A stretch of DNA of 64,000 bases from contig JAJDAH010000112.1 of NCBI GenBank assembly GCA_029261965.1, positions 1-64,000 of the forward strand, given 5' to 3'. The number at the start of each line of letters is the position of its first letter. Positions within the stretch are counted from its first letter, which is position 1. Made by a program: the position numbers and the translations under genes. Below, piece by piece: positions 1,543-60,014 of the stretch. The notes beneath the pieces were generated by a model. The model did not search any database. It saw only the letters and a program-made list of their open reading frames with translations, and was not told the origin of the DNA. This DNA comes from Polyangiaceae bacterium (GTDB lineage: Bacteria > Myxococcota_A > Polyangia > Polyangiales > Polyangiaceae).

Positions 1543-2469
1543 ATGCGCTCGCTTTGGTTTCTCGCCGCCTTCGTCGGAACGCTTTCAGGCTGCTCCTCCG
1601 ATCCCGCGGATTCTTCCGACGGAGAGCCCAACAATCCTCCCGCCCCGGTCAAGTACGCCGCGGGCATCACCGAGGTGGAGGGCGGACTCGTCTTCGCCAC
1701 CGAAGAGTACACGCTGGAACCCGGCGCCGAGCGCTATGTCTGCTTCGCAGCGAACACCGAAACCGCGGCGAACGTCAAAGCCCACCGCTACGACGCGCGC
1801 TCATCGGTGCACCACTTCATGTTCGCTCGCACTTCTGCGCCCGAGCCCGATGGCATGAGTGACTGCCCGGTGCTCTTTCGACCGACGTGGGCTCCCTTGT
1901 TCGTCGGCGCGACAGTGGACAGCGAAGTCGATCTGCCAACGGGCAGCGCCCAGATCCTACCGACCGACACCCAGTTGATGGTTCAGCTGCACCTGCTCAA
2001 CACGACGCCGGATCCAATTACGGACCAGGCCGTGTTCGAAATGACGTTGTCCGACGACGCCGCCCCGACGCCGGTCGGCATCTACGCGTTCGGCACCATC
2101 GCCGTCGACTTGCCGCCCCAGCAGACGACCATGGTGGTCAGCGACTGCACCCTGGACAAGGACGTGGAGATTTTCGGAATTCTTCCGCACATGCACTACC
2201 TCGGTCGATCCCTCGAAGTGCAGATGGGCACCGACGAGGGCTCGCTCCAAACAGTGTGGAAGCGCGACCCCTACGACTTCGACGACCAAACGCTCGACAT
2301 GGCCCCGCTCTCGTTTCCGTCCGGCATGCTCACGAGGACCACGTGCATGTTCGACAACACGACCGCAGAACAGGTCGGCTTCGGCGAGAGCACCTTCGAC
2401 GAAATGTGTTTTGCCGTGGGATTCGCGCTGGGAATCGACGGCGTCGACGGCTGCATCGGCGGGTTTTAG
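1543..2469 (+). CDS. copper type II monooxygenase-like lipoprotein (PHM/DBH family), copy 1
   Basis: This 308-residue protein has a lipoprotein signal (LSGC, lipidated Cys17) and the complete ligand pattern of peptidylglycine alpha-hydroxylating / dopamine beta-monooxygenases. The first copper site would use His90-His91 and His150 (QLHLLNTT); the second His216-x-His218 (PHMH) and Met288 (DEMC). Spacings between ligands (59, 66, 70 residues) are close to those of PHM. The TTCMFDNTT segment before the Met is also family-typical. Such enzymes hydroxylate C-H bonds with O2 and ascorbate; the substrate here is unknown and activity is inferred. Two paralogues occur at 37942 and 58974. The leader has AAGG 8 nt before the ATG. 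Confidence 0.8.
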   Translation: MRSLWFLAAFVGTLSGCSSDPADSSDGEPNNPPAPVKYAAGITEVEGGLVFATEEYTLEPGAERYVCFAANTETAANVKAHRYDARSSVHHFMFARTSAPEPDGMSDCPVLFRPTWAPLFVGATVDSEVDLPTGSAQILPTDTQLMVQLHLLNTTPDPITDQAVFEMTLSDDAAPTPVGIYAFGTIAVDLPPQQTTMVVSDCTLDKDVEIFGILPHMHYLGRSLEVQMGTDEGSLQTVWKRDPYDFDDQTLDMAPLSFPSGMLTRTTCMFDNTTAEQVGFGESTFDEMCFAVGFALGIDGVDGCIGGF

Positions 2470-2512
2470 CCCCGCCCAAGGTTTGCCCTCGCGCGGCTAC
2501 CAGCTCGCGCAG

Positions 2513-4579
2513 CTACCAACTCGCGTGCCACCGATGCCCACCGAGCAGTATCTCGATGGCCGGGCGGTCGAAACGATGCACACGCTCCCCGGTGGACGGC
2601 GGCGACAGTCGGCGGCGATCCAAAGGAGAGCTCCGGAGATCGATGCTCGCGGTGTCGTCGACGAGCGGGCCAGCGGCGAGATTCTGCCGGCGATAGCGGA
2701 GTGGAGCGCGAGCCAAGACGATGGCGAAGTAGCTCGCTCTGCCTTCGGCGTGCACAGAGAGCAGGTCGCGGTGCGCGAAAACGGACGCGAACGTGCTGTA
2801 CAGCACCGCGTTCGCCGCCGGGCTGATCGAGCGATCCGACCACGCGACGAGAACACCGTCGGGAGCCAACAGATCCGCCAGCCGATGCAGATACTCCTGC
2901 GTGTAGAGCTTCGCCGCTCGGTCGACGTAGCCCGGATGCACCGTGTGCACGATCAGGTCGAAAGCACGGGGCTCGAACAGGCTCGGAGCGAGCACGGCGT
3001 CCATCTCGTGATAGGTGACCCGCGGGTTCGTCGCGACGCCGTAGTTGAGCTCGTGGAGCCGTTCGAGCAGCGGCGGCACCGTCGCTCCGACGTCGATGAC
3101 GTCCGTTCGAGCGAACGCGGTGGCCACGAAGCCAGCGGTGCGCCCCGAGCCCGCGCCGAGAACGAGCGCTCGGCGGAGGCGCCGCGCATAGGCGACACCA
3201 AACGCCCCGATGCTCGATTCCATCCTCATCCCGGGCTCGGCTTGCAGGCCGACGGGGCTGTAGCCCGTTTGGTAGAGCCTCCGTTCACTGCCTTCACGAC
3301 GCGGTACCGAGTAGATCGCCGTCAGCTCGCCAGGCCCTCGAAAGATCTCGTGCACCTCGACCCCCGGCCGCTTCTCCGACCGCTGGACGAGGCGAGTGTC
3401 GTTCGTGAAAAACGCCCCCAACGCGAGCACCAGCACCGCGCCCGCCGCGACCAACGGAGCGCGCCGCGCAAAAACGCTCACCAGGACGAGCCCGGCGACG
3501 GCCGCGACCCACGGAGCTGGCAACAGCGCCGAAAGAACGACGCTGGCGACGAGGCCAAGCGCATTGCCAGCGCCGAGCGACAGGAGGGCGCCGCCGGTTT
3601 TCGTCCGGCTCGATGAGCGTTCGTGTACGAACGCTGGCAGCAGCGCGCCGATGGGGATCGCCGCTGGAGCCATCAAGACGAACATCCCGGACAGCGCCGC
3701 GGGCGCGCCGCCCGGCATCGGACGCAGGGTAACGCACGCCACGAGCATGCCCGTCGCCGCCATACCGACGGCGCTGGCAACGAGAACGCCGTGAAAGGAA
3801 AGCCGGAGCCGGTACCACGCCACCGCGCCGAGCGCATGACCGCACAGGAACACCGCGATGACCCCAGGGCCGACGTAGTAGAACGGGCGAAACAAGACGC
3901 TCGCGAGCAAAAGTGCGGCGCCCTGAAACAGGCCCGTGGCTGTGCCAGCGACACCGAGCTCGCGAACGAACCTGCCAACCCGGACTCGCTCGAGCGCCCG
4001 CGCAGACGTGAGCCACAGCAAGACCGCGACGGTGACGTGGGTCGCCACGAGGAACGCAAACGCCGCCCTCAAACCCCAAGTCGGGTAGAGCCAACCCTCC
4101 ACGGCCACAATCGCCAAGAAGGCACCCAGCGCGTGATAGGCGTAGCCCCGACCGACACTTCCAACGATCTCGATGACGGCCGGCAACGTCACGCCGAGCA
4201 GCACGGCGGGCACCGCGACGCTAGCGGCCCCGAGGAGCGCGCTCGACGCCGAGATCCCGAGCGCGCCGGCGATCGAAACCACGAGAGAGCCCATGGCCGA
4301 CGACAAGAACGGAAACGCTAACAGCCAAGCCGTCGAGAGCACGGCCAGCACGACTTCGGCGACCCACGGTCTTCGAACGCGCGCCGAAAAGAGCGAGCCC
4401 ACGCCGACACCAACGATGAAGGTCGCCACGACCACCGGCGTCACGACCGGCGACGAGCCGACCGAAAAATCGAGCGCTTTGAGGTAGACGACTTCGCTAC
4501 CGAGACCGCCAACGCCCGTCAAAACGGCGAGCGAGTGCGCAAGACCGCGACCCGCCGGAGCGTTTCGAGTCGTCGACAT
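2513..4579 (-). CDS. polytopic membrane protein with degenerate spermidine-synthase domain, copy 1
   Basis: The product has 688 residues. About the first 390 are very hydrophobic with some 10-12 membrane segments; the last 290 form a soluble Rossmann-type domain like spermidine/spermine synthase. The SAM/dcSAM loop VLGAGSGRTAG is at about residues 468-480. Where aminopropyltransferases have the catalytic DSTDP segment, this protein reads HTVHP (about 542-548), so the catalytic Asp is absent and polyamine synthesis is unlikely. It is closely similar in layout to the gene at 9024. It converges on the lipoprotein gene ending at 2469. The function is unknown; a membrane-tethered methyltransferase or ligand sensor is possible. 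Confidence 0.75.
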   Translation of the reverse strand: MSTTRNAPAGRGLAHSLAVLTGVGGLGSEVVYLKALDFSVGSSPVVTPVVVATFIVGVGVGSLFSARVRRPWVAEVVLAVLSTAWLLAFPFLSSAMGSLVVSIAGALGISASSALLGAASVAVPAVLLGVTLPAVIEIVGSVGRGYAYHALGAFLAIVAVEGWLYPTWGLRAAFAFLVATHVTVAVLLWLTSARALERVRVGRFVRELGVAGTATGLFQGAALLLASVLFRPFYYVGPGVIAVFLCGHALGAVAWYRLRLSFHGVLVASAVGMAATGMLVACVTLRPMPGGAPAALSGMFVLMAPAAIPIGALLPAFVHERSSSRTKTGGALLSLGAGNALGLVASVVLSALLPAPWVAAVAGLVLVSVFARRAPLVAAGAVLVLALGAFFTNDTRLVQRSEKRPGVEVHEIFRGPGELTAIYSVPRREGSERRLYQTGYSPVGLQAEPGMRMESSIGAFGVAYARRLRRALVLGAGSGRTAGFVATAFARTDVIDVGATVPPLLERLHELNYGVATNPRVTYHEMDAVLAPSLFEPRAFDLIVHTVHPGYVDRAAKLYTQEYLHRLADLLAPDGVLVAWSDRSISPAANAVLYSTFASVFAHRDLLSVHAEGRASYFAIVLARAPLRYRRQNLAAGPLVDDTASIDLRSSPLDRRRLSPPSTGERVHRFDRPAIEILLGGHRWHASW

Positions 4580-4597
4580 GCTCCGACCCGTACGGGC

Positions 4598-5920
4598 TCA
4601 GGCGGGCACCCAGTGCAGGTGCACGGTGTTGTAGAGCGGCACGTCGAGGCGTTGAACGACCTCGAGCGTGTTGGCGTCGACGATGGCGATGCCGTGATCC
4701 TGTCCATTGGCGGCGATGTACGAAGTGCCGGGGAGGTCGCACACGCCCCGTAGCTCGAAGAGTCCCATGTCGAACGCCGAAAGCGATCGCAGCGCATGAG
4801 TGCCTGGCGACACGCGGATCAAGTTGTCCGAGTGAGTGAACACGCCGAACACGTTGCCGCTCTTCGAGTGGGTGACGACGCTCTGGTTGCGTCGCTGATG
4901 GCCGGGAGCCAAGGTCAACCGTTTGATTTGCCCCTTTTTCGGATCGAACACGACGATGGGAGATGGAAGCGCGTACAGGCGCCGGCGGTACTCCGAAGGA
5001 CGAAGCGACGGCAAAGCGGCGCGATCACCGCCGAGCTCGTCGAGCAGCGCTTCGAGCCCCGGCGCGCCCATCCGCACGTATTGCAGGAGGCCCACGTAGA
5101 TCAGACCGTCGCCCCCGATGTCGAAGTGGGTCAGCGCCTGGTCGAGCGGAACCTCGAACTTGCGTTTGAGCTCGAGGGTCTTGCTGTCGAGAAACGTGAG
5201 CGAGGTCTCCCGGATGTTCCAGTAGTAGGGCGGCTTCGAAAAGTGATCGCCCCAGTGCCCGTAGTGCGAGACGACGACCTCCTTGCCATCAGGCATGAGC
5301 TTGGCGTCGTGTGGTAGGAAGCCGCCGGTCTTCACCGTGTCGAGCACACCGTAGCTCTCGAGGTCGACCACCTCGAGCAGCCCCTCGTGCTTCTCGCCGT
5401 CGGTTTTTCTGAGCGGCACGTAAGCACGGCCGTCGACGACGACCGCATGGCCACTGTAGTCGTAGTCCGACTCGTTCTCGAGCACGTGAACGACTTCGTG
5501 ACTCTTGCGGTCGAGCACGAGAGAGTGCTTTCCGCCGTCGGCCACGCAGAGGATCCGACCGCGGCCGATGTCGACGGGAATGTGTCCGAGGGTGACCGGA
5601 ACCGGGCTCGTGCGGAAGGCACCGGTGGCCAAGTCCACGTCGATGAACACCGACCACTTTTCGGGTTGGCGGCGCGTCTTGCGCTTCGCGAACGACTTTT
5701 CCAGCACGGACGCGGTGCCGTCGGTGCCGAACGCCAGGATTCGACCCGAGAGCTTCGGTTTGGCCCCACCCTCCGCCGACGAGGATTCTCCGGTGCTGCG
5801 CGCGCTCGGAACCGGAGGTGTCCTCGACGCCGGCGGCTCGGTACGCTCTTTGGAGCAACCGAAGCACGCTCCGGCTAGAGCGATCAACGCGCTACGCCGG
5901 GACACCCGTCTGCTCACCAC
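4598..5920 (-). CDS. Tat-exported beta-propeller lipoprotein (DUF1513-like)
   Basis: The product is 440 residues from a GTG at 5920. The longer frame up to 6079 would overlap the divergent gene start at 5982, and the GTG places a twin-arginine signal (SRRSALIAL) plus a lipobox (LAGAC or CFGC) at the N-terminus. A Ser/Pro/Glu-rich linker follows, then repeated blades of the YVTN type (VFIDVDLATG, LEVVDLESYG, LTFLDSKTLE, IAIVDANTLE). LPHDAKLMPDG resembles DUF1513 proteins, which are periplasmic and of unknown biochemistry. The start lacks an obvious ribosome binding site and a second GTG follows directly, so the exact start is uncertain. The intergenic gap to the divergent acyltransferase is 61 bp. 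Confidence 0.7.
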   Translation of the reverse strand: MVSRRVSRRSALIALAGACFGCSKERTEPPASRTPPVPSARSTGESSSAEGGAKPKLSGRILAFGTDGTASVLEKSFAKRKTRRQPEKWSVFIDVDLATGAFRTSPVPVTLGHIPVDIGRGRILCVADGGKHSLVLDRKSHEVVHVLENESDYDYSGHAVVVDGRAYVPLRKTDGEKHEGLLEVVDLESYGVLDTVKTGGFLPHDAKLMPDGKEVVVSHYGHWGDHFSKPPYYWNIRETSLTFLDSKTLELKRKFEVPLDQALTHFDIGGDGLIYVGLLQYVRMGAPGLEALLDELGGDRAALPSLRPSEYRRRLYALPSPIVVFDPKKGQIKRLTLAPGHQRRNQSVVTHSKSGNVFGVFTHSDNLIRVSPGTHALRSLSAFDMGLFELRGVCDLPGTSYIAANGQDHGIAIVDANTLEVVQRLDVPLYNTVHLHWVPA

Positions 5921-5981
5921 CGGAGTATCTTTGCCGAACGCGCGAACCGTCAAGAAGCGTTCGCTCGCGCCCGGTCGGACG

Positions 5982-7115
5982 ATGAGCACCACGAGTCCAG
6001 AGCGCTGGCACTTCCTCGACATCTCGCGGGGCGTGATGGTGCTTCTCTTGGTGTTCGGGCATGCGGACGTCTTCTTCAACCCGTCGGCCTACGGAGACGA
6101 GGGCTTCGGCGGTAGCTTCGTTCCGGTCGGTGCCCTCGAGGACTTCGTAGCGCGAGCTGTTCGCCTCCCGGCCGCAACGGGATTCTTCTTCATTTCGGGA
6201 ATCACGCTGGCTCGACGCTACGGCGCCGTGCGTACCGACGGCTCCACCCGGAGCTATGCGTCGCACGTCCTCAGACGCGCCGCGTTCTTTCTAGCCCTCG
6301 AGCCACTCGTCATCGGTCACCTGTGGACGGCATCGATGACCGAGAACATGATCGCGTTTGGTGTCATCTCTTGTTTCGCCTTGTGTTTCCTCGCCTCGGT
6401 CGGGTTTTCGCGGCTCGGACCCATGGCGGCGGTCGCGCTGGCCGTCGCCCTCGTGCTGGGCAAGGAGCTACTGCGGATCCCCGCGCCGGCCGATCCCCTG
6501 AGCCCAGCAGCGATGGCCTACGGCTTGCTCTGGGAACCCGTGTTCTACGCGGGCCATTGGTACGCATCGTACCCCGTCGCCGGATGGCTCCCAGCGATGT
6601 TGCTCGGTTACGCTTTTGGCGTCCGTCTGCTCGCTCGCAAACCCGGCGCCACACCGAGCCCGCGCCCCCTGCTCGTGGCCAGCGTCGGCCTGGCCGTCGC
6701 ATTCTTCGCGCTCCGTCTGAGCACCACTTTCGGCAGCCTCGGGCAAGCGGTCCCGGGATCCGCCGTCGAGCTCTTCAACATGAGCAAGTACCCACCCAGC
6801 TTGCACATGATCCTGTGTGCGCTTTCGCTCGTGGTGTTGATCGTCGCGATTTCCGCGCGTCTCTCGGCAACCCCACAGTCGTTCGTTTTCCGCTTCTTCG
6901 CCGGCTACGGCCGGCAAGCATTCTTCGTGTACATCGTGCTCGCGGTGGGGTTCGGGATCCCCGGGGTCGTCTTCGGATGGCGGGCCGACGGCTCACTGTT
7001 CCTGTCTACCGTCGTATTCTTCCTGTCGCTGTACCCGATGCTGCGTACCGCCGAGGCCTACGATCGCTTCAAGCGTCAGCACCGCGCCCGCATTTGGATC
7101 CTGAAGTATGTCTGA
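5982..7115 (+). CDS. integral membrane acyltransferase-like protein (DUF1624 / HGSNAT type)
   Basis: The product has 377 residues and about ten hydrophobic segments. The N-terminus WHFLDISRGVMVLLLVFGHAD has the Asp-x-x-Arg-Gly and His layout seen at the start of membrane acyltransferase families (OafA/OpgC-like and the heparan-glucosaminide N-acetyltransferase/DUF1624 group). The ATG at 5982 is chosen because this motif normally begins within the first 20 residues; the frame is open further upstream but overlaps the divergent gene. The stop overlaps the next gene by 8 bp, so the two are translationally coupled. The likely role is acylation of an envelope saccharide (inference). Confidence 0.65.
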   Translation: MSTTSPERWHFLDISRGVMVLLLVFGHADVFFNPSAYGDEGFGGSFVPVGALEDFVARAVRLPAATGFFFISGITLARRYGAVRTDGSTRSYASHVLRRAAFFLALEPLVIGHLWTASMTENMIAFGVISCFALCFLASVGFSRLGPMAAVALAVALVLGKELLRIPAPADPLSPAAMAYGLLWEPVFYAGHWYASYPVAGWLPAMLLGYAFGVRLLARKPGATPSPRPLLVASVGLAVAFFALRLSTTFGSLGQAVPGSAVELFNMSKYPPSLHMILCALSLVVLIVAISARLSATPQSFVFRFFAGYGRQAFFVYIVLAVGFGIPGVVFGWRADGSLFLSTVVFFLSLYPMLRTAEAYDRFKRQHRARIWILKYV

Positions 7116-8001: not shown

Positions 8002-8083
8002 CGATTTTTCCGTCCGCACCTCCCGCGCGACAAGACCCAGCCGCCGCCCTTGCCCCCCGCGCCCTCGGCAAGCGCTGTACCCC

Positions 8084-8983: not shown

Positions 8984-9023
8984 GTCGAACCAACTCGCCA
9001 GCGATTATATCAGCTGGAAAGCC

Positions 9024-34513: not shown

Positions 34514-35203
34514 ATGAAGATTGCAAAGTACATCGGGACGCGCGCGCTGGTTGTTGCCTTGGGAGCTTTCGCGGTGGTCGGAACCACGACGACGGACGCG
34601 GAAGCATGCGGCGGCGCCTGGATCGACTTCGAGATGCTGCTCGACTTCCGGGACCACGGCATCGACCAGGCTGAGGAAGCCCTGGAAGAGGGCCGCTACG
34701 AGGCGGCCGCGGGTTACATTATCCGCGTCATGCCCCACGTCCGTCAGCTCAAGGCGTCGAGCAGCCCCGAGGTTCGCCGCGCGCTTCGAGTGCTGTCGGT
34801 CGCCACGGCGCGCTCGAACGGCCAGCTGAAAATCGACCGCGAGGTCCAGAGCTGGGTGATGGGCCAGAAGGAGTGGATGGGAAAGAAGAGCGAGGACCGC
34901 GCGAACAACCTCGAGTGGGCCATCAATTCCCTCCGCAGCATCGACAAGGTCAAGAAGGACGACCCGGTCGTGCAGACCGAGCTGGCCGAGGCGCTCGCCA
35001 AGGTCGACGCCCACAAGGGTGAGGCACGCGAGATCCTCGAGAAGCTCGCCAAGAAGGACCTGATCGTTTCCGCCGAGGGCTACGCGGTTCTCGCCGAGCT
35101 TCGCGCCGAGAAGGGCGACAGCAAGGGCAGCAAGCTCGCCATGGACCAGTGCCGGAAGATCGACGGCGAATCGACCGTCTGCGGCACCGCGCGGAAGAGC
35201 TGA
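34514..35203 (+). CDS. secreted helical-repeat (TPR-like) protein
   Basis: The product has 229 residues with a signal peptide (basic start, hydrophobic to about residue 22, probable cleavage near DAEA before CGGAWID). The mature part is helical with TPR-like pairs (IDQAEEALEEGRYEAAAGYI, ELAEALAKVDAHKGEAREIL, EGYAVLAELRAEKGDSKG), each matching the A-x-x-x-x-G/A pattern of helix-turn-helix repeats. It likely serves as a periplasmic scaffold or adaptor. Its stop overlaps the start of the tetrahaem lipoprotein (TGATG), so the two are translationally coupled and probably form one periplasmic unit. Confidence 0.7.
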   Translation: MKIAKYIGTRALVVALGAFAVVGTTTTDAEACGGAWIDFEMLLDFRDHGIDQAEEALEEGRYEAAAGYIIRVMPHVRQLKASSSPEVRRALRVLSVATARSNGQLKIDREVQSWVMGQKEWMGKKSEDRANNLEWAINSLRSIDKVKKDDPVVQTELAEALAKVDAHKGEAREILEKLAKKDLIVSAEGYAVLAELRAEKGDSKGSKLAMDQCRKIDGESTVCGTARKS

Positions 35204-36495
35204 TGATGAGAGGGGGACGTCTACTGGCTCGACTCCCCCTGTTGGCGATGGTGGTGGCGCTCGGTTGCAAAACCGAGCGTCACCCCGTTCCATCTCCCGA
35301 GCCAAGCGCCGAGGTCACACCTCCCCCGAGCGCCGCGCCGCCGCCGGTCGCGGCGAAAGTCGCTTTTGTCCCCGGCGACGCCGCTCACGGCAAGAAGCTG
35401 GTCGAAAAGTTCGAGTGCAGCCGCTGCCACATGGGAACCGGATTCGAGCCGGCCCGGCTCGACCAGAACTGCGTGACCTGTCACCAGGAAATCATGGCGG
35501 GGACTTTCGGTCGGAACGCCCCGGCGACCGAGCGGGCGCGGTGGAAAAAGACCGTGGCGGACTATCAAGACGCGCCAAGTCTGGCGGCCATGGGGGACCG
35601 CCTCGAGCCCGAATGGGTGATGGCCTACATCCTCGAACCGCACGACGTTCGGCCGACGCTCGTTCCTTCCATGCCGCGGCTCGACGTCACCGAGAAGCAA
35701 GCCCGCGACATGGCGACCTACCTCACCGCCAACCGGAAACCCGCGAAGAAGATTTCACCGATCAAAGGTGATGCGAAGAAAGGGCGCCGACTGCTCGAAG
35801 ACAAGAGCTGCGGCAGCTGCCACCTGTTCACCGGCGTGCCCGACTTGCCGATGAAGCCCGACCCGAAAGAGGCCACTAAAGAAACGCGAGCCGGCACGGT
35901 GCTCGCCCCGGACTTGCGTTACGCGCGCGACCGCTACTCTCCGGCAAACATGGTGCGCTGGCTCCTCGACCCGAAATCCATCAAGCCCGACACCAACATG
36001 CCCGCGCATTCGCTGACCCAGGCGGACGCCATGAGCCTCACCGCGTACCTGGTCGAAACCAAGCTCGCCCCGCTCCCGCCCAAACCCATTCCCAAACGCC
36101 TCCCCGTGCTCGACCGCAAGGTGAAGTACGAGGAAGTCGACGAGAAAGTCTTCCACGTGACCTGCCGGCACTGCCACGCCGATCCCGACGCGCTCATGGG
36201 CGACGGCGGTCCAGGCAACACCGGCGGGTTCGGCTTTCCGCCGCGCAAGCTCGACTTCAGCACTTACCGCGGAACGATGGCGGGTTACGTCGCGAAAGAC
36301 GGCGAACGCCACAGCGTCTTCGAAAAAATGAAAGACGGCACCCCGCGACTCGTCGCTTCGCTCTTGGCCCGCCAAGCCGAAGAAGCCGGCAAGCCGATCC
36401 CCGACATCCGCGGCATGCCGCTCGGACTTCCGGCAGCAACACCGGAACAGATCCAAATCGTCGAAACCTGGATCGCCCAAGGCCGCCCGCGCTAG
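35203..36495 (+). CDS. tetrahaem c-type cytochrome lipoprotein
   Basis: The product has 430 residues; ATG 35203 overlaps the preceding stop and a second ATG follows at 35206. There is a lipobox ALGC with Cys22, then a Pro/Ala-rich linker. Four CxxCH haem c motifs are seen: Cys72-His76 (CSRCH), Cys90-His94 (CVTCH), Cys203-His207 (CGSCH) and Cys321-His325 (CRHCH). The middle segments (MPRLDVTEKQARDMATYL, MPAHSLTQADAMSLTAYL) are the typical distal Met regions of mono-haem domains, giving two or three cytochrome c domains. It is outer- or inner-membrane anchored, with a probable role in periplasmic electron transfer. The partner protein is encoded just upstream. Confidence 0.85.
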   Translation: MMRGGRLLARLPLLAMVVALGCKTERHPVPSPEPSAEVTPPPSAAPPPVAAKVAFVPGDAAHGKKLVEKFECSRCHMGTGFEPARLDQNCVTCHQEIMAGTFGRNAPATERARWKKTVADYQDAPSLAAMGDRLEPEWVMAYILEPHDVRPTLVPSMPRLDVTEKQARDMATYLTANRKPAKKISPIKGDAKKGRRLLEDKSCGSCHLFTGVPDLPMKPDPKEATKETRAGTVLAPDLRYARDRYSPANMVRWLLDPKSIKPDTNMPAHSLTQADAMSLTAYLVETKLAPLPPKPIPKRLPVLDRKVKYEEVDEKVFHVTCRHCHADPDALMGDGGPGNTGGFGFPPRKLDFSTYRGTMAGYVAKDGERHSVFEKMKDGTPRLVASLLARQAEEAGKPIPDIRGMPLGLPAATPEQIQIVETWIAQGRPR

Positions 36496-37941: not shown

Positions 37942-39048
37942 ATGAGTGTTTCGAAACCGACCCGATCCCTTCTCGGCGCCCTCGCTATCGCCTCGAGCCT
38001 GGTCGCAATGGGCTGCTCTTCGAGCGACGCCGCCGACCCCGCGGGAAGCACCGGCGCGGCTGGCGCGGGATCGGGCACCGGCGGCGCCGGCTCGGTCCCG
38101 ACGGGCCCTGGCCTCTCGCTGTCTCCGCCGGAAGACGGCCTTCAAGTCCGGTCGGTCGGAACGACCATCCCCGTGGGCGAAGACCAAGAGTTCTGCGAGG
38201 TCGTCGCGCTTCCGGGCTCGCCGAGCGACGTCTACACCATCGACCGCGTCGAGATTCAGATGACGGAGTACAGCCATCACCTGAACGTGCGCGCGATCGT
38301 GCCGGGCACCGAAGCCGACCAGAACAGCACCGCGGGTCAGCGCGTGCCGTGCCGGAACAACGGGACCAACGCTTTCGGTGAGGGATTCGCCACGCTCTCG
38401 ATGAGTCAGCAGCGGTACAACGACACCGCGTTCCCCGAGGGCGTGGGCCTTCGACTGGTCGGCGGACAGAAGATCGTCTTCAACTACCACTACCTGAACT
38501 CGAGCACGGAGCCGGTCGAAGCGAGAGCCGCGGTCAACCTGCACTTCGCCGAGCCCGGGAGCGTGCGAAAGGACATGCACCGTTTCGGCATGTACAACTT
38601 CGGCATCTCGATCCCGTCGCGCTCGCAGGCGAAGTTCACGATGGAGTGCCGGGTCAGCCAGGACATTCGAATCTGGAACCTGATCCGGCACACGCACAAG
38701 TGGGGCACGGACTTTCACACCTGGTACGCCGGTGGGGCGCGCGACGGCGAGCTCATCTTCACGAGCACGGACTGGGAGTTGAACCAAGACCACCAGCTCG
38801 CCGATCCGGTGCTCATCCCCGCGGGGCAAGGTTTCCGGTTCGAATGTAACTTCGACAATACGACCGAACGAGATCTCGGCTTCGGGGTGACGGCCGAGGA
38901 CGAGATGTGCATTCTGTACGGCCAGTGGTTCGTCGCGAACGACGGTGAAGCGCCGCTGAGCCAGGACTGCGTCGGCGTCGCACCCGGAGCGGACGGGATC
39001 ACCCAGGGCGCCCCCTGCGCGGGCTGCGCCGACGGCAAACTCTTCTGA
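37942..39048 (+). CDS. copper type II monooxygenase-like lipoprotein (PHM/DBH family), copy 2
   Basis: The product has 368 residues. Lipoprotein signal VAMGC (Cys25), then a Gly/Ala/Thr linker to about residue 56. Copper ligands by motif are His112-His113 (YSHHLNV) and His183 (NYHYLNSS) for the first site, His250-x-His252 (RHTHKW) and Met322 (EDEMC) for the second. Ligand spacings of 70, 67 and 70 residues match PHM and the copies at 1543 and 58974. The FECNFDNTT segment is also shared. The reaction is expected to be ascorbate- and O2-dependent hydroxylation; the substrate is unknown. Confidence 0.8.
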   Translation: MSVSKPTRSLLGALAIASSLVAMGCSSSDAADPAGSTGAAGAGSGTGGAGSVPTGPGLSLSPPEDGLQVRSVGTTIPVGEDQEFCEVVALPGSPSDVYTIDRVEIQMTEYSHHLNVRAIVPGTEADQNSTAGQRVPCRNNGTNAFGEGFATLSMSQQRYNDTAFPEGVGLRLVGGQKIVFNYHYLNSSTEPVEARAAVNLHFAEPGSVRKDMHRFGMYNFGISIPSRSQAKFTMECRVSQDIRIWNLIRHTHKWGTDFHTWYAGGARDGELIFTSTDWELNQDHQLADPVLIPAGQGFRFECNFDNTTERDLGFGVTAEDEMCILYGQWFVANDGEAPLSQDCVGVAPGADGITQGAPCAGCADGKLF

Positions 39049-51641: not shown

Positions 51642-51667
51642 CGAAGGGCACTGAACGCCGCCCTTCG
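51642..51667 (-). terminator. GC hairpin between cytochrome and mgtE
   Basis: Perfect 8-bp stem CGAAGGGC / GCCCTTCG, 10-nt loop, 28 bp downstream of the multihaem cytochrome stop on the minus strand; no T-run. Confidence 0.45.
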
Positions 51668-51694
51668 TCGTGAATCGTCAGCGCGGGCTCGTTC

Positions 51695-53770
51695 CTATGG
51701 ATCGCAGCTGACTTCGCGGTTGCCCGATCGGCAGATTTGGATACCCAAGGCTCGATCGATCATGTCTTTTGGCACGGCGCCTTGACCTTCGTGGGAGAAG
51801 CTCACGATAGGCACGCCCTCGGGGTCGAGGAACTGGGTCAAGTCGTAGAGGATGCCGTCGCCGTCGGCCATCGCAAAGCGGCCGGTACCGAAGCCGAAGG
51901 TCTCTCGAGCTTTTTGGATCGAGCCGTCGGCGTCACGGTGGCAGCGGCTGCACTCCTGCGGCCGACGCTTGGCGACGTGCGGCTCGTCGATGGCCCAGTT
52001 GAAACCGCGATGCCCGGCAGCGCTAGTTCGAATGCGATCAGTGAATACCGGCGTACCGCTCTCGTCGGTGACGCTCATGAAAACCTGCATCGACGGACAG
52101 AACGTGCCGATCTTGCCGCGCTGATTCATGCCGACGAAAAACAGATCGAGAGACGTGAAGTCTCGGCTGGGTATCTCGATGCCCGGCGACAGGAGACCAC
52201 TCAGGCCGTCCTTCTTGCTGAGGCTGTAGTCCATCTCGACGTGGCAACCGAAGCAGTACTGGCGGTAGGCGGTGTGGCACGTGCTGCACTCGAGCACTTC
52301 GGTGTGGCTGAAGCCGGTGTCGGCACGACGACCCATCGCGTCCGTCATGAACGGGTTCACGCCTAGCTCGAGGCGATCGTGGATCTGCGGAACCGGCAGA
52401 CTGTCTGGACCGCCGGGCGGGGGCACGGCGAGGCGGATTTCCACTTCACCCCGGTCGTTTCGAAACAGCGGGAGTGCATTGCCGGCGCAGTTGAGAAACG
52501 CGTCCGCGGGACCGGTGGGACTGCACTCTTGATCCGGCGCCCCGGCGGGAGGCAGTCCGGCGGTCGCCGTGCCTTCGGCGATGGCCTGGTCGATGTTCCC
52601 GTGGCAATTTTCGCACCGGACCGACACCTGAAATTTCGAGGTGGAATAGATCCAGCCATCACCGTGAACGTCGCGCCCGACATGGCAATCGACGCAGGTC
52701 ATGCCCGCGGAGAAGTGAAGGTCCGGCGGGAACCTCGGATCGACCGAGGCTTGGAGGTAGCCGTCATCCGGTCGGCCGTGGATTCCGCCGGCGTTGGGCA
52801 AGTCGACACCGAGAACGTCGATGGGGTCGGCATCGAACTCCCATTCGATGACACCGCGAAAGAGAAGACCAATGCGAGCCCCTTGATGGTGACAAGTCTC
52901 GCACTGGCTGCCGGGGATGGCCGAGGTCAGCTCGTGCTCGACGGGATGGGCTCGAAAATCTCGAACGGCGCTCGGGTCCATCGAACCCGTCTGACCGAGC
53001 TCGTCGTAGATCATGTGGCAAGCGGTGCAGCCACTCGAACGGTAGTTCCCCGGCACGTCGTTCTTGCCGAAGCTCGCTTGGTGGCACCGCGTACAGTTCT
53101 TCACCAGGTAGTGATCCATGGCGGTGGAAATCTCGCCGATGGGCGCGCTCGGATCCGGCACCTCGGCCTGCTCGAGCGACAGCACCGCGCCACGGGGAAT
53201 TTCCCCCGAACCCACCGATTCGATGGCGCTGCTACCGAGCTCCGCCGCGCGACCTTGCATGCCCGCCTGGAATCTCGGCACGTCGAAGTGCCCGACGAAG
53301 GTGCTCATGACCGAGCGCTGGGTCGAGTCCACCAACGGCTGGTGGCAACCGTTGCCGGGATCCGCCGGCGAGCTGCTGCCGCAGCTCGTGGACGCGACAC
53401 GAAAATCGCCGGGGTTGACGAAGCGTAAGAACGCTGGATCGACACGGTCGAGCTCGTCGACCGAGAGATTTTTCAAATAGCCGGGCGTGGGCAACTCGAG
53501 AACCCACGGTTCTGCCGCGACGTGCGCCAGAACCGCTTCGGTGGCGTCTCCATCACCGCCGTGACAGTCGGTACACGACAAATCGTAGCCGGGGTGCGCG
53601 AGCTCTATGGCGTTCTCCTCCCCGGACGGGCCGTGACAGGTCGACGACTCGCACGATTGCCGCACGACGGGCGGTGGTCCGGGCGGAGTTTTCTCGGAGC
53701 CGCAGGCAGCGACGATGGCCGCCGACGCCACTGGAACCAGCACCGACAAAAACGAGGACAGGTAACGCAT
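51695..53770 (-). CDS. multihaem c-type cytochrome lipoprotein with unusual haem motifs
   Basis: The product has 691 residues; lipobox VAAC (Cys23). Nine CxxCH motifs are seen (CTDCH, CTRCH, CTACH, CETCH, CVDCH, CENCH, CSTCH, CFGCH, CSRCH), the first at Cys66-His70. In addition there is a CX4CH motif (Cys40-Cys45-His46) and a CX11CH motif (Cys130-Cys142-His143), so up to eleven haems. Role: periplasmic or outer-membrane electron transfer, or an oxidoreductase with a special haem, as noncanonical motifs mark catalytic haems in some enzymes. The gene begins 5 bp after the lipoprotein gene at 53776, same operon. Confidence 0.85.
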   Translation of the reverse strand: MRYLSSFLSVLVPVASAAIVAACGSEKTPPGPPPVVRQSCESSTCHGPSGEENAIELAHPGYDLSCTDCHGGDGDATEAVLAHVAAEPWVLELPTPGYLKNLSVDELDRVDPAFLRFVNPGDFRVASTSCGSSSPADPGNGCHQPLVDSTQRSVMSTFVGHFDVPRFQAGMQGRAAELGSSAIESVGSGEIPRGAVLSLEQAEVPDPSAPIGEISTAMDHYLVKNCTRCHQASFGKNDVPGNYRSSGCTACHMIYDELGQTGSMDPSAVRDFRAHPVEHELTSAIPGSQCETCHHQGARIGLLFRGVIEWEFDADPIDVLGVDLPNAGGIHGRPDDGYLQASVDPRFPPDLHFSAGMTCVDCHVGRDVHGDGWIYSTSKFQVSVRCENCHGNIDQAIAEGTATAGLPPAGAPDQECSPTGPADAFLNCAGNALPLFRNDRGEVEIRLAVPPPGGPDSLPVPQIHDRLELGVNPFMTDAMGRRADTGFSHTEVLECSTCHTAYRQYCFGCHVEMDYSLSKKDGLSGLLSPGIEIPSRDFTSLDLFFVGMNQRGKIGTFCPSMQVFMSVTDESGTPVFTDRIRTSAAGHRGFNWAIDEPHVAKRRPQECSRCHRDADGSIQKARETFGFGTGRFAMADGDGILYDLTQFLDPEGVPIVSFSHEGQGAVPKDMIDRALGIQICRSGNREVSCDP

Positions 53771-53775
53771 GCCGA

Positions 53776-54816
53776 CTAGCGGATCCTGAGGACTCCCATC
53801 CCCGTAGCGGACGCTTCGTTGTTCGACTGATCGGTGACTATCGCCTCGACCCTCGCTTCGACGCCATCCAGATCCGCGCCGCCCAGCTCGGCAGGGTTCA
53901 TGACGATGGGAACCAAGTATCGATTGTCGTCGTCGAGACAGATGAACTGCGAGAATCCATCGCCGGCGCGAGTCGTGGAATCGCCGGTGTCCGTCCGCGT
54001 GATCGTCACGCTCACCATCGCCACCTCACCCACGAAGTTTCGCGTTCGAAGCGCAACGGTGATCGACCGACCGGCCTGCCCCCCGCCGACCATCGGGATG
54101 TCGCCACCGGGCAAGAGACTGACGAAGGCCCGTGGATTGCTCGGATCGGGCACCCCGACCTGAACCTCGAGCTCGCCGCCGGGCTGACACGGCCCACCCA
54201 CCGCACCGTCGCCCCCACCGTCCACCGGTTTCGGTCCGACGGAACCTGGGGCTCCGCGGGCGATCCATTCCCTGAAAACGGCAATCTGAGCATCGGGCAG
54301 CGGCGTGGCGGTCGCCGCAAACGGCATGAGCGAGCCGAAGATGATCTCGCCTTCCTGGGTGAGCGGACAAACGGAGAGGGGGTACTTGCCGTCGGTGCCG
54401 CGAGTAATGCCCGGATCCCAATTGGGATCCGGCTCGAACTGGATCGCGCCGAACTCGTCGTGCGAGCCGACGAGCTTGAGATAGAGCCAGCTGTTGTCCG
54501 GACGAAACGGGTCGATCCGCGGCATGCGATCGTACTCGCAGGACGGAACACTGAGCAGCACGTCGCGTAGGTCCGCTTGCCCGCGTACCGCCGGCGTGAA
54601 GCTCAATCGCGCCTGGCCATCGGTACCGCCGTGGCAGCTCGAACCGGTGGCGCACGACTCGGTGACGACTCCGAGCACGGCCTCGTAGCTCCCGGGCGCC
54701 GGGCCAGCATCGTTGCCGTCGTCGTCACTGGGCGTCGACGAGCATGCGGGGGCCAGGACGGCGAACGCACACAAGGTCACCCAGATCGAAGTCTGCTCGT
54801 CAGCCCGAATTTTCAC
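53776..54816 (-). CDS. lipoprotein with CX5CH motif, partner of multihaem cytochrome
   Basis: The product has 346 residues from a GTG with GGGAGG four bases upstream. Lipobox APAC (Cys25), acidic linker, then VLGVVTESCATGSSCHGG, a CX5CH motif (Cys55, Cys61, His62) where mono-haem domains of the planctomycete type have CxxCH. The following RLSFTPAV, MPRIDPFRPDNSWLYLKLVG and MPFAATATPLPDAQIAVFREWIARGAP match that domain type well, including its distal Met segments. Haem binding is therefore uncertain: a looped haem motif or a disulphide. The last 120 residues form a beta-rich domain. Cotranscribed with the cytochrome. Confidence 0.75.
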   Translation of the reverse strand: MKIRADEQTSIWVTLCAFAVLAPACSSTPSDDDGNDAGPAPGSYEAVLGVVTESCATGSSCHGGTDGQARLSFTPAVRGQADLRDVLLSVPSCEYDRMPRIDPFRPDNSWLYLKLVGSHDEFGAIQFEPDPNWDPGITRGTDGKYPLSVCPLTQEGEIIFGSLMPFAATATPLPDAQIAVFREWIARGAPGSVGPKPVDGGGDGAVGGPCQPGGELEVQVGVPDPSNPRAFVSLLPGGDIPMVGGGQAGRSITVALRTRNFVGEVAMVSVTITRTDTGDSTTRAGDGFSQFICLDDDNRYLVPIVMNPAELGGADLDGVEARVEAIVTDQSNNEASATGMGVLRIR

Positions 54817-54850
54817 GCGCCTCCCTGACTCGCGCTAGCCTAGCGGACTT

Positions 54851-55849
54851 TCAAGCCGCCGGCACGTTGCTCACCAGCTTCGTTTGGAGGGAAGCCGAGA
54901 GCGCGTCGCCGAGCATGGCGGAGCCCTCGTGCTCGCGATCCATGGCGAGTAGAACCGCCCCGACGACCGGTTCTACTTCCAACCGGACCACGCGTGCGCC
55001 GGGCTTCGCCTTTTTGAGCCCCCGAGCGACCGCGATGGTCAAGGTGGGGTCCACCCCGCGCTGAAGCACACTGCCACCCAAAACGACGGTCACCGTGTCG
55101 GCGTCCAGAAAAAGACGTTCGACGAGTACCTTGGCGGCGAGCGCAATCTCCTCACCCGCCTCTTCGAGCAGTGAACGCGCGACGCGGTCGCCTTCGGCAG
55201 CTGCGTCGAACACGAGCGGAGCGAGCCGACCGAGCTCCGCACGAGGGTCGTCGTTCATCCAGAGATCGATCACGTCGATGAGCGGCTCGACCCCGAGGGT
55301 CGAGCAAATCTTGCCGTAGAGCGACGTTTGCGGACCCCGGCCGTCCTCGCCACGCATGGCGCGTCGCATGGCTTCGCGCCCGAGATCTCCGGCGGATCCG
55401 AAGTCGCCCAGCTCGAACCCAACTCCGCCCACGTTCTCCACCCGCCCGTCGGTCGTGCGACCGATCGCATTCGTTCCCGTGCCCGACACCAGCGCTACCC
55501 CCACACCCGCCGGGGCGCCGGCGCGAAGAACGAGGTGGCTGTCGTTGACTAGGGTTCGTCGAGGTTCCATCGGAATGGGTGGCAGCTGCCGACGAATCGC
55601 CTCGAAGTCTTTCGGGCGGTCCGCACCGGCAATCCCGTAGCCCGCCCAAGCGAGCTGCTCGAAGGTCGCTCCCGCCGCGTCGAGGGCACGCTCTGCGACG
55701 TCTGCCAGCGCCGCTCTCGCGCGCTCGGCGCCGATGGTCTGGTAGTTGGCGGGCCCCCCGTCGGCGCGTGCCACGACGGTGCCCGCGTCGTCGGCAATCA
55801 TCGCCGACGATCGCGTACCGCCAGCGTCGATGCCGAGATAAAGAGCCAT
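54851..55849 (-). CDS. BadF/BadG/BcrA/BcrD-type kinase, N-acetylglucosamine kinase-like
   Basis: The product has 332 residues of the ASKHA fold: phosphate loop 1 LGIDAGGTRSSAMI, loop 2 VGVALVSGTGTNAIG, adenosine region VVLGGSVLQRG. The family phosphorylates N-acetylglucosamine and related sugars with ATP, or activates CoA reductases; the length and the GYGIAGADRP segment favour sugar kinase. It starts 18 bp after the Gfo/Idh oxidoreductase gene, pointing to a shared sugar pathway (inference), perhaps cell-wall amino-sugar recovery. Confidence 0.8.
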   Translation of the reverse strand: MALYLGIDAGGTRSSAMIADDAGTVVARADGGPANYQTIGAERARAALADVAERALDAAGATFEQLAWAGYGIAGADRPKDFEAIRRQLPPIPMEPRRTLVNDSHLVLRAGAPAGVGVALVSGTGTNAIGRTTDGRVENVGGVGFELGDFGSAGDLGREAMRRAMRGEDGRGPQTSLYGKICSTLGVEPLIDVIDLWMNDDPRAELGRLAPLVFDAAAEGDRVARSLLEEAGEEIALAAKVLVERLFLDADTVTVVLGGSVLQRGVDPTLTIAVARGLKKAKPGARVVRLEVEPVVGAVLLAMDREHEGSAMLGDALSASLQTKLVSNVPAA

Positions 55850-55867
55850 GGGTCGAAGACCGCGCGC

Positions 55868-56938
55868 CTATCTCTCGAGCCAGAGGTCGACGGCGCGCTC
55901 GACACCCTTCGGCCGAAACGGAAACTCGATCCGTTTGCCCGTTGCGGCACTTTCGTAGGCGGCGTAACTGATCTCGAGCTGCACCAAACCGTCTTCGCCG
56001 CTCACCCGCGGTTTCTCGCCGGTTCGTGCGCAGTGGAGGAAGTGCTCCATCTCTTGCGGGTAGCCGTTGTTCCAAAGCCAATCTGGGTCTTGCCACGACC
56101 ACAGGATGCTTTCGGGATCGTCGGCGGGTCCCTTCTGGCTGTACATGCGCATCCCGGTGCCGCGAAGCAGATCACAATACAGCACCCCCTCGGTGCCGGT
56201 GATGTCGAGGTGACTCTCCATTCCCCCTTGGAGCGACCAAGATGATTCGAGCAAAGCCGTCACGCCGCCCTCGAACTCGAGCACACACACCGAGTGGTCT
56301 TCGAGCTCGCTGTCCGGGTGGGTTTCGTTCGACATCCGGGCATACACGGCGACGGGTTTGGGATAGTCGAGCACGAATCGAGTCACCTCGATCGCGTGGC
56401 ACCCCATGTCCATCAGAATGCCACCCCCCGCTTCATCGCGAGTGAAAAACCACGGCGAGTGAGGGCCGCCGTGCGCCTCCACCTGTCGTACTTGAAAGAC
56501 GCGACCTAGGGCTCCACTTTTCAGCATGTGCTTGGCCCGAACGAACTTGGGCACGAAACACAGCTCCACCCCGACAGCGAGCATGACGCCGGCTTTCTTG
56601 CAGGCGTCGACCATCCGTTGCCCCTCTTCGAGGTTCGTGGCCAACGGTTTTTCGCAGATCACGTGCTTGCCAGCCTGCGCCGCATCGAGCACGACCTGCT
56701 CGTGCAGGTGGTTCGGAAGACCCACACAGATCACGTCGAGGTCTGCGGCCTCGAGCAGTTGACGATGATCGGTGAATACTTTCGGGATGCCGTGCTTCTT
56801 CGCGAACTCTCCGCCACGTTTTTCGTCGCGGGAGACCACGCCGACGAGCTTGGCACCACTGACTCGATTGAGCGCTTGGGCGTGCACGTCGGCCACCCAG
56901 CCAGTCCCCGTCAGACCCACACCGAGTACGTCCGTCAT
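55868..56938 (-). CDS. Gfo/Idh/MocA family oxidoreductase
   Basis: The product has 356 residues; ATG 56938 chosen because the Rossmann start VGLTGTGWVADVHAQAL follows at once. NAD(P)-binding GxGxxA-like loop at 8-14, the conserved EKP at 96-98 with catalytic Lys97, and GGGILMDMGCHAIEVTRF with the catalytic His near residue 175 are seen. Family members oxidise or dehydrate sugars, inositols or glycosides, some removing sugars by an NAD-dependent cycle akin to GH4/GH109. First gene of the minus-strand run through the kinase at 54851. Confidence 0.87.
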   Translation of the reverse strand: MTDVLGVGLTGTGWVADVHAQALNRVSGAKLVGVVSRDEKRGGEFAKKHGIPKVFTDHRQLLEAADLDVICVGLPNHLHEQVVLDAAQAGKHVICEKPLATNLEEGQRMVDACKKAGVMLAVGVELCFVPKFVRAKHMLKSGALGRVFQVRQVEAHGGPHSPWFFTRDEAGGGILMDMGCHAIEVTRFVLDYPKPVAVYARMSNETHPDSELEDHSVCVLEFEGGVTALLESSWSLQGGMESHLDITGTEGVLYCDLLRGTGMRMYSQKGPADDPESILWSWQDPDWLWNNGYPQEMEHFLHCARTGEKPRVSGEDGLVQLEISYAAYESAATGKRIEFPFRPKGVERAVDLWLER

Positions 56939-57094
56939 GACACGGGAGGCTACCCCGGCGCGGCCGGCGCATCGGCAGATTTCGTGGGGTGTACGTGCCG
57001 AGCGGATGGCGCAAGGGAGTTGCCCGCTCGCCCACGCCGTGCGATCGAACGCTGGTAGTCCGACGCCTCTACGTTGGAGCCAAGGAGAAGTCTC

Positions 57095-57934
57095 ATGCCC
57101 CACCGCCTTTCTCGCGCCCCGCTCCGGGCCCTCGGCGCGCTCACCATCGCTGGCTCGATATTCGCGGCGCCGACGGCAACGGCTGGAGAGCTGCCGGTCG
57201 ACTTGGCCAAACGCCCGCTCACGTTGCCGAAGGGCACTATCCGGGCCGAAACGGCCTTCGACATCTTCCGCGTCATGATCGATACGCCGTTCGGCACCGC
57301 GGACGAAACCTTCGTTCGGTGGATCACCGGAGCCGGCGTCGGCATCACGGACGACTTCGAAGCTGGCGCGCTGCTGCTTCCGATCCTGCTCTCGCCGGAC
57401 GGTGGATTCGGCGACATCCAGGTTTACGGGATGTACCGTTTCATCGAGGGTGAAGCCGAAGTCGGCGCGCGACTCGAGCTGAATCTGCCCACGGACACCG
57501 ACTTCGGTGTGGCGTTCGGTCTTCCCGTGTTGCTCCGGTTCAGCGACGCCATCCGCGTCGACACCGGCCTCACGCTAAACATCGCGACCGATCCAACGGT
57601 CGTCGGTCTCGCGGATCCGCTCCTTCCGCAGCCGATCCCGACGAGGAGCACCGCTGGCATCCCGCTCGTGCTCAACTTCAACGCCACGAGCGAGATCTTC
57701 CTCGGTGGTCGCACGGGGTTCGGCGTCGCCGACTTCGAGAACTTCGGCGACACCGTGTTCATTCCCCTGGGATTCCAAGGTGGCTACTCGCTCGAAGCGA
57801 GCAAGTCCGCGCTAATCGATCTCGGCGTGCGGTTCGAGTGGCCGTTTTTCATCACTCCCGGCGGCAATGATGCGGTCAACGCCAACTTCTATCGAATCCT
57901 GATCGGGGCCGAAGCCTACCTAGACGTGTTCTGA
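57095..57934 (+). CDS. outer-membrane beta-barrel protein, unknown role
   Basis: The product has 279 residues; ATG 57095 is chosen because AAGGAG lies 7 bp upstream (a TTG at 57074 is in frame). Signal peptide with probable cleavage after TATA-G. The mature chain alternates hydrophobic strands and turns (IRAETAFDIFRV, GVGITDDFEAGALL, AEVGARLELNLP, EIFLGGRTGFGV) and ends in Phe (YLDVF), the usual outer-membrane insertion signal. Probably a 10-14-strand barrel or pore. Its stop overlaps the next start by one base, so it is coupled to the dehalogenase-like gene and may admit its substrate. Confidence 0.7.
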   Translation: MPHRLSRAPLRALGALTIAGSIFAAPTATAGELPVDLAKRPLTLPKGTIRAETAFDIFRVMIDTPFGTADETFVRWITGAGVGITDDFEAGALLLPILLSPDGGFGDIQVYGMYRFIEGEAEVGARLELNLPTDTDFGVAFGLPVLLRFSDAIRVDTGLTLNIATDPTVVGLADPLLPQPIPTRSTAGIPLVLNFNATSEIFLGGRTGFGVADFENFGDTVFIPLGFQGGYSLEASKSALIDLGVRFEWPFFITPGGNDAVNANFYRILIGAEAYLDVF

Positions 57935-58827
57935 TGGAAGCTCTCCGAACGCCTGACGCACGCTTCGAAAAGCTTGCGGGATACGACTACGCCCCTCGAT
58001 ACATCGACGATCTGCCAGGCTACGACGGCTTGCGGCTTCATTACATCGACGAAGGCCCGCTAGACGCCGAGCACACCTGTCTCTGCCTCCACGGCGAGCC
58101 CACCTGGGCGTACCTCTACCGAAAGATGACGCCGGTTTTCACCTCCGGCGGCTGCCGAGTCATCGCCCCGGACTTTTTCGGTTTCGGTCGTTCAGACAAA
58201 CCAACGGCCGCGGAGTCGTATTCGTTTTCGTTTCATCGCAACACGCTCCTTCGGTTCATCGAACGCTTGGACCTGAAGAACGTGACGCTCGTCTGCCAGG
58301 ACTGGGGAGGCCTGCTCGGGCTGACCCTCCCGCTCGACGTCGGGGACCGCCTCGCACGCTTGATCGTGATGAACACCGCCATCGCTGTCGGGGCCTCACC
58401 GGGCAAGGGCTTCGAAGCCTGGCGCGACTACGTACGCAACACCCCGAACCTGTCGGTCGGCAGCCTGATGGGGCGCGCCGCCCCGAGCCTCAGCGAAGCC
58501 GAACGCGCCGCCTACGACGCCCCGTTCCCCAGCGACGACTTCAAAGAAGGCGTGCGCCGCTTCCCCGAGCTCGTACCCACATCACCCGACATGGAGGGCG
58601 CCGATCTCGGGAGAGAGGCGGCGACGTGGTGGAGCGAAACGTGGAATGGCCCGACGTTCATGGCCGTCGGCATGCAGGATCCAGTGCTGGGGCCGCCGGT
58701 AATGGCTGCGCTGAGGCAGGTCATCCGCGGATGTCCCCAACCGCTCGAGATCGCCGACGCAGGACATTTCGTGCAGGAAGCGGGTGATGTCATCGCCGCG
58801 CGTGCCCTCGCAGCGTTCGCCCGCTGA
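57934..58827 (+). CDS. haloalkane-dehalogenase-like alpha/beta hydrolase
   Basis: The product has 297 residues, close to the 310 of DhlA. The catalytic triad is complete: Asp123 nucleophile (CQDWGG), Asp249 (VGMQDP) and His278 (DAGHFVQE). HGEPTWAYLYRKM (oxyanion, Glu55) and Trp124 as first halide-stabilising residue mark subfamily I. By alignment from memory with DhlA, the second halide-stabilising cap Trp is Ala182 (LMGRAAPSLSEAE), so activity on halides may be weak or changed. No signal peptide: cytoplasmic. Translationally coupled to the upstream barrel protein. Confidence 0.8.
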   Translation: MEALRTPDARFEKLAGYDYAPRYIDDLPGYDGLRLHYIDEGPLDAEHTCLCLHGEPTWAYLYRKMTPVFTSGGCRVIAPDFFGFGRSDKPTAAESYSFSFHRNTLLRFIERLDLKNVTLVCQDWGGLLGLTLPLDVGDRLARLIVMNTAIAVGASPGKGFEAWRDYVRNTPNLSVGSLMGRAAPSLSEAERAAYDAPFPSDDFKEGVRRFPELVPTSPDMEGADLGREAATWWSETWNGPTFMAVGMQDPVLGPPVMAALRQVIRGCPQPLEIADAGHFVQEAGDVIAARALAAFAR

Positions 58828-58913
58828 GCCTCCGCTCGAATTTCGCTGCCTCTCGACCGCAGGATTTTCGCCACCTGTAAGGCGCGCAGATCAAACCCCT
58901 GCGACCGCGCAGT

Positions 58914-58941
58914 GGGCCGCCGCAATTCGGCCGGGCGGCCC
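58914..58941 (+). terminator. GC-rich hairpin before copper-monooxygenase copy 3
   Basis: Perfect 8-bp stem GGGCCGCC / GGCGGCCC, 12-nt loop, 86 nt after the dehalogenase-like stop and 32 nt before the next ATG; terminator or leader element. Confidence 0.4.
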
Positions 58942-58973
58942 GCGGCTCGGGCGGCTAAACTCAGCGCATCACC

Positions 58974-60014
58974 ATGCGCCGTGTTCCCACGATTCTTTTC
59001 TTGGCTGCGAGTTTCGCCGCCGCCGGTTGCTCGGGCTCCGACGACACCACCACCGCCCCTGGAACCGAGCCAGAAAAACCACCTCCGCCGCCAGAGCCCG
59101 ACCTATCCCACACGTTTCCGCCCATCACCATCGGGCCGGGCGACGAAATCACGAGCCTTTGTCAGAGCTGGACCGTCGGCAACGACACCCCGTTGTTCGT
59201 CAATTGGGTCCGCACCGTGAACGACGGCGGTTGGCATCACAGCAACTGGTTCTTCGTCACCGACGATCAGTACGACGGTCCCGACGGCACTTGGCCGTGC
59301 AGCGAGCGAAACTTTTCGCAAGTTGGCGCCGGCGTGAGTGGCGGAGTTTTCTTCGCTCAATCCACTCAGGCACTCGGAGAAGAGCAGAAGTTCGCCGAAG
59401 GCGTTGCCATTCACGTTCCGGCGAACGCGCGGATCATCGGCAACGTCCACTTGCTCAACACGACGCCCGACTCGATGGACAGCAGCCTGTCCTTCGACGT
59501 GAACGTCATCGAGCCCGAAGACGTCGTCATCGAGCTGAGCCCGATGACGTTCACGAACATGGCGCTCGCGATTCCACCGCGTCAGCGATCCGTCCACGAG
59601 ATGGACTGCGAGTTCCAGAGCGCGGCGGACTTCAACATCCACTACGTGCTGCCGCACTATCACGAGCTCGGCGAGGAGTTCACGCTGCATCTGACCGGTG
59701 GCGATCGCGATGGTGAGCTGTTCTTCGAGAACCGTGCTCCCACTGGCGAAGCATGGGGTCAGGTTTTCGACCCGCCGATCTCGATGGCCGGAGCGTTGGG
59801 CGCACGCCTCACCTGCGGCTTCGACAATACGTTCGACAAAGAGATCGGCTACGGCGTCGGCGACCAGGAGATGTGCATCTTCCTCGCGTTCACCGACAGC
59901 AAAAAGAAGTTCGCCGGCGTTTCACTCAGCAACGTCAGCGTCGGCGAGACGAACGCCGAGGGGCTCCACCGAAACGTCGGCGGATGCCTCATGATCGAGA
60001 CGCCGCCGGAGTGA
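58974..60014 (+). CDS. copper type II monooxygenase-like lipoprotein (PHM/DBH family), copy 3
   Basis: The product has 346 residues; lipobox AAGC (Cys19) and a Pro/Glu-rich linker to about residue 45. First copper site: His88-His89 (GWHHSNW) and His159 (NVHLLNTT); second: His228-x-His230 (PHYHEL) and Met300 (DQEMC). Ligand spacings 70, 69 and 70. The NVHLLNTTPDS segment is nearly identical to QLHLLNTTPDP of copy 1, and LTCGFDNT parallels TTCMFDNT. The substrate is unknown; the protein is tethered outside the cytoplasmic membrane. Converges with the aminotransferase gene. Confidence 0.8.
   Translation: MRRVPTILFLAASFAAAGCSGSDDTTTAPGTEPEKPPPPPEPDLSHTFPPITIGPGDEITSLCQSWTVGNDTPLFVNWVRTVNDGGWHHSNWFFVTDDQYDGPDGTWPCSERNFSQVGAGVSGGVFFAQSTQALGEEQKFAEGVAIHVPANARIIGNVHLLNTTPDSMDSSLSFDVNVIEPEDVVIELSPMTFTNMALAIPPRQRSVHEMDCEFQSAADFNIHYVLPHYHELGEEFTLHLTGGDRDGELFFENRAPTGEAWGQVFDPPISMAGALGARLTCGFDNTFDKEIGYGVGDQEMCIFLAFTDSKKKFAGVSLSNVSVGETNAEGLHRNVGGCLMIETPPE

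Follow-up and report, generated by a model that had tools for sequence, protein, structure and literature searches.

A large bacterial branch of PHM/DBH-type lipoproteins as candidate dicopper monooxygenases

PHM and DBH, which amidate peptide hormones and make noradrenaline, are familiar chiefly from the neuro-endocrine systems of animals, where they use ascorbate. The window analysed here, the whole stretch of 64,000 nucleotides on contig C16 of a Polyangiaceae bacterium, carries three genes for predicted lipoproteins that resemble these copper enzymes. This raises the questions whether the resemblance reflects true kinship, what such proteins might do outside the cytoplasm and whether three copies in one window have a meaning of their own.

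A preliminary description of the window had reported lipoprotein genes at positions 1543, 37942 and 58974, each with a full set of His-His, His, His-x-His and Met ligands. All three open reading frames are present, their codon-position GC is coding-like, and the reported ligand spacings are exact. They are called W1, W2 and W3 here:

1543..2469, + strand: W1, gene for a PHM/DBH-type lipoprotein of 308 amino acids (PF03712 match, 1.9e-8)
1810..1815, + strand: His-His pair H90/H91 of W1
2404..2406, + strand: Met ligand M288 of W1, in the EMC motif
37942..39048, + strand: W2, gene for a PHM/DBH-type lipoprotein of 368 amino acids (PF03712 match, 2.5e-8)
38275..38280, + strand: His-His pair H112/H113 of W2
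38905..38907, + strand: Met ligand M322 of W2, in the EMC motif
58974..60014, + strand: W3, gene for a PHM/DBH-type lipoprotein of 346 amino acids (below Pfam detection)
59235..59240, + strand: His-His pair H88/H89 of W3
59871..59873, + strand: Met ligand M300 of W3, in the EMC motif

W1 has the CuH-type ligands H90, H91 and H150 and the CuM-type ligands H216, H218 and M288; the corresponding residues are H112, H113, H183, H250, H252 and M322 in W2 and H88, H89, H159, H228, H230 and M300 in W3. The distance from the second to the third His is 59, 70 and 70 residues in W1, W2 and W3, respectively, followed by 66, 67 and 69 residues to the HxH motif and 70 residues in each protein to the Met. 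Inspection revealed lipobox-type signal peptides in all three (LSGC17 in W1, AMGC25 in W2 and AAGC19 in W3). Likely disulfides of W1 are C67-C108, C202-C304 and C268-C289.

Comparison of a family profile with the PDB identified human DBH (4zel, 9.4e-23) and rat PHM (1sdw, 1.1e-21), with both domains covered and with the HH, H, HxH and M ligands aligned in register; beyond DBH and PHM this search returned no credible entry. The single sequence of W1 had no true match in the PDB, and DBH and PHM were found by the profile only. The Pfam domain Cu2_monoox_C (PF03712) is detected in W1 and W2 and not in W3, and Cu2_monooxygen (PF01082) in none of the three. Among the 38 near-complete copies of the source genome, 22 match PF03712 and two match PF01082, the latter being the two heme-fused copies described below. 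The bacterial entries of the two Pfam families cover the branch in part, W3 and others lying below detection, although the N-domain does align in the profile and in the models of W2 and W3.

AlphaFold models of W2 (pLDDT 82.7; DBH Z 23.2, PHM Z 23.0) and W3 (pLDDT 87.9; PHM Z 23.7, DBH Z 23.6) show the two-domain beta-sandwich fold, with best Z scores of 23.2-23.7, but one set of aligned copies underlies both, which makes them partly dependent on one another. The next fold is that of PNGase F and its relatives (Z at most 9.9). This distantly similar two-domain beta-sandwich, at Z 8-10, is a far weaker match than PHM/DBH, and PNGase F is not known to be a copper enzyme. W1 is placed by the profile only. 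The assignment to the PHM/DBH family made in the preliminary description is thus upheld by the profile, by Cu2_monoox_C in two of the three proteins and by the predicted fold in two of the three. Judged from profile and models, W1-W3 are genuine bacterial relatives of the PHM/DBH copper enzymes of animals.

The likeness extends to details. With PHM (1sdw, 1phm) the bacterial proteins share the two-domain beta-sandwich, the HH/H and HxH/M ligands and the positions of the disulfide cysteines in the CuH and CuM domains. Among DBH and the MOXD proteins, DBH (4zel) is the best profile match, and it also has the Asn located three residues past the third His and the Asn of a CxxxN motif that are invariant in the bacterial copies. 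The copper ligands of DBH are His262, His263, His333, His412, His414 and Met487, and its disulfides include C232-C283, C390-C503 and C466-C488 (PMC4846438), which the bacterial Cys pairs fit. Replacing any of the three CuH histidines of PHM with Ala results in an inactive enzyme (PMC6123673). In contrast to PHM, to which they are 14-20% identical, the bacterial copies are predicted to be lipid-anchored; unlike DBH, W1-W3 have no detected DOMON or dimerization domain, and one bacterial clade carries an N-terminal c-type heme module where DBH has DOMON.

The 38 near-complete copies have a mean column identity of 17% and a median pairwise identity of approximately 23%. Invariant among them are the six copper ligands, two Asn, two disulfide Cys, Met1 and the lipobox Cys. 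Start codons that gave a lipobox were preferred, so the number of lipoboxes is inflated, and the invariance of Met1 and the lipobox Cys is partly due to construction; these two were left out of the hypergeometric count, according to which ten invariant columns containing all six ligands would arise by chance with a probability of ~1e-10. Several further Cys, Gly, Pro and Glu positions are more than 90% conserved in the 38 copies, and any given ligand is retained by 115-121 (94-99%) of 122 proteins drawn from seven genomes. Since all six ligands are invariant despite a mean column identity of 17%, the pattern is beyond chance, and their retention at such low pairwise identity indicates strong purifying selection. 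Decay or redundancy of many of the duplicates, with a family size that is neutral or an assembly artefact, is therefore hard to reconcile with the 38 near-complete copies, and the 11-55 copies in other genomes of the phylum likewise speak against it. The state of the assembly (480 contigs, 3.5% contamination), several fragments at contig ends and one copy without its His ligands would fit such a scenario, which we regard as highly improbable. The copy in question, L095 (G000 C406:53292-54086), has lost its copper-ligand histidines and is either a pseudogene or a copper-free paralogue.

The source genome is a draft of 9.59 Mb in 480 contigs, 96.4% complete. PF03712 has 24 matches in it, a profile of W1-W3 has 43 and a profile of the 38 near-complete copies has 45; these 45 include contig-end fragments and degenerate copies, and approximately 40 genes are intact. 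A single genome encodes about 40 scattered predicted lipoproteins of this kind, apparently all uncharacterised. The preliminary description had taken three copies in one window as notable. With 45 matches in 9.59 Mb the expected density is 0.30 per 64 kb, and approximately 0.5 windows with at least three copies are expected genome-wide, so this aspect loses its weight. Common descent, which had also been proposed, is borne out in the sense that the three belong to one homologous family, but not as a local duplication. A tree of 122 proteins places W1 beside copies of genomes G336 and G003, W2 beside three copies of its own genome and a G336 copy, and W3 beside copies of its own genome, G187 and G085. 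Each of the three thus belongs to a different deep clade; they are ancient paralogues that lie on one contig by coincidence, and the tree rejects local tandem duplication as their source. Lineage-specific expansion is seen in the source genome as well; for instance, eight copies that are 48-65% identical form a clade.

The family is widespread in relatives. PF03712 is present in 68 of 98 genomes of the taxonomic family and in 152 of 282 genomes drawn from the phylum, and it was found in none of 14 control genomes. Because searches of many genomes cap the count for each genome, comparison of copy numbers rests on searches of a few genomes with the deep profile: eight rich genomes of the taxonomic family have 14-21 matches each, against 45 in the source genome, and four genomes of the order or class have 55, 20, 13 and 11. 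The genome with 55 matches, G336, belongs to the same order and exceeds the source genome.

We consider it likely that W1-W3 are lipid-anchored dicopper monooxygenases and represent an extensive bacterial branch within the PHM/DBH (copper type II) superfamily, as sequence and models suggest. The proteins would be exported and lipid-anchored, presumably in the outer membrane, and would adopt the PHM fold with its two beta-sandwich domains. Two separated coppers would be bound, CuH via the His-His pair and the third His and CuM via HxH and Met. By homology, O2 would be activated at CuM, CuH would relay electrons, and a small molecule or an exposed group outside the cytoplasm would receive one oxygen at a C-H bond. 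Substrates probably differ between the paralogues, since almost nothing apart from the copper core is constant among them.

The fold and ligand set are as in PHM and would also suit its true function, here the alpha-amidation of secreted or prey peptides. PHM binds the carboxylate of its peptide substrate through Arg240, Asn316 and Tyr318, and this clamp is not conserved in the bacterial copies: the Arg240 position is Arg and the Asn316 position Asn in 0 of 40 copies, and the Tyr318 position is Tyr in three of 40. In addition, Pfam detects neither a PAL lyase domain nor any other further domain in W1-W3. The absence of Arg from the Arg240 position in 40 copies together with the lack of an attached PAL make amidation unlikely from the sequences, and we give it very little credence. 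The same lack of conserved PHM substrate-site residues would be expected if the dicopper fold had been kept in lipoproteins that bind, sense or store copper and are not monooxygenases, a reading with which it also agrees that no gene for a partner enzyme or reductase recurs alongside the copies. However, the six ligands of two chemically different sites are kept, including the Met of the O2-activating copper, and storage needs less than that; heme fusions in a sister clade moreover point to electron transfer. We therefore judge such a non-catalytic role improbable, though less so than amidation.

That lipid-anchored monooxygenases of this kind represent an unstudied oxidative chemistry on the bacterial surface, as the preliminary description proposed, is plausible, both catalysis and surface exposure being putative. 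More speculative is the idea that members of the phylum possess a large and varied array of dicopper hydroxylases outside the cytoplasm, which would receive electrons from c-type cytochromes and not from ascorbate, with a different extracellular compound for each paralogue, like an external P450 repertoire; we hold this only tentatively and think it doubtful as a whole. The compounds in that case may be derived from prey or plants or be surface metabolites of the cell itself.

A clue to electron supply comes from two copies of the source genome in which a CxxCH motif precedes the copper domains; they are its only copies matching both Pfam copper domains:

G000 C332:6751-8397: L092, with an N-terminal c-type heme motif (CHECH)
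G000 C316:7049-8428: L093, with an N-terminal c-type heme motif (CLGCH)

Their N-terminal regions resemble small class I cytochromes c. L092 has a Cytochrome_CBB3 match of 4e-4, which is below the curated cut-off, and L093 has no Pfam cytochrome match. In the tree both fall into one clade with copies of G336, several of which are heme-fused. One CxxCH ahead of the copper domains is also found in 13 of 24 long open reading frames from other genomes of the phylum; these were picked for length, and the fraction is not the frequency of heme fusion. Several related genomes have fusions of this type (among L177-L196). The DOMON domain of DBH shares its fold with a cytochrome domain that binds heme (PMC4846438), and since DBH carries it, a heme-type module beside the copper core has a precedent in form. 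The heme-fused clade suggests cytochrome c, not ascorbate, as the source of electrons, and on the likeliest reading of the sequences c-type cytochromes are the electron donors of the bacterial members. W1, W2 and W3 contain no heme motif. Neither an all-against-all comparison nor a tally of Pfam matches in 65 flanking genes found a family in more than three, and genes for heme proteins are not enriched near the copies (7 with versus 450 without, control regions 3/296; p 0.75). As there is neither a recurring partner gene nor such an enrichment, a c-type cytochrome or another periplasmic reductant as donor of the heme-free W1-W3 is a guess.

The fold and the presumed chemistry are already known; what is new is the predicted lipid anchor, the massive multiplication and, for one clade, the fusion to a heme module. 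No NCBIfam model matches the bacterial branch. A search of the open-access literature yielded nothing specific on bacterial PHM/DBH homologues, and none of the few such papers with the Pfam names concerns bacteria. A bacterial branch in which one genome has approximately 40 copies, the copper sites are fixed and one clade is heme-fused would locate the diversity of the superfamily, would give bacterial models of the PHM/DBH mechanism and would offer a putative set of C-H hydroxylases. How such an enzyme is reduced in bacteria, if not by ascorbate, becomes directly testable.

Some neighbouring genes in the window are described for completeness:

57934-58827, + strand: alpha/beta hydrolase gene
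51695-53770, - strand: lipoprotein-like open reading frame of 691 amino acids with nine CxxCH and one CxxxxCH and a Cytochrome_c3_2 match
53776-54816, - strand: lipoprotein-like open reading frame with a CxxxxCH
35149-36495, + strand: open reading frame of 448 amino acids with four CxxCH, likely a multiheme lipoprotein

The alpha/beta hydrolase gene lies upstream of W3, in the same orientation and at a distance of 147 bases, and co-transcription is possible; a pairing of this kind does not stand out at other copies of the family. The nine-heme gene, near W3, is treated as a coincidence in view of the missing enrichment, and the gene with the CxxxxCH is the next one upstream of it. The gene with four CxxCH is located approximately 1.4 kb upstream of W2.
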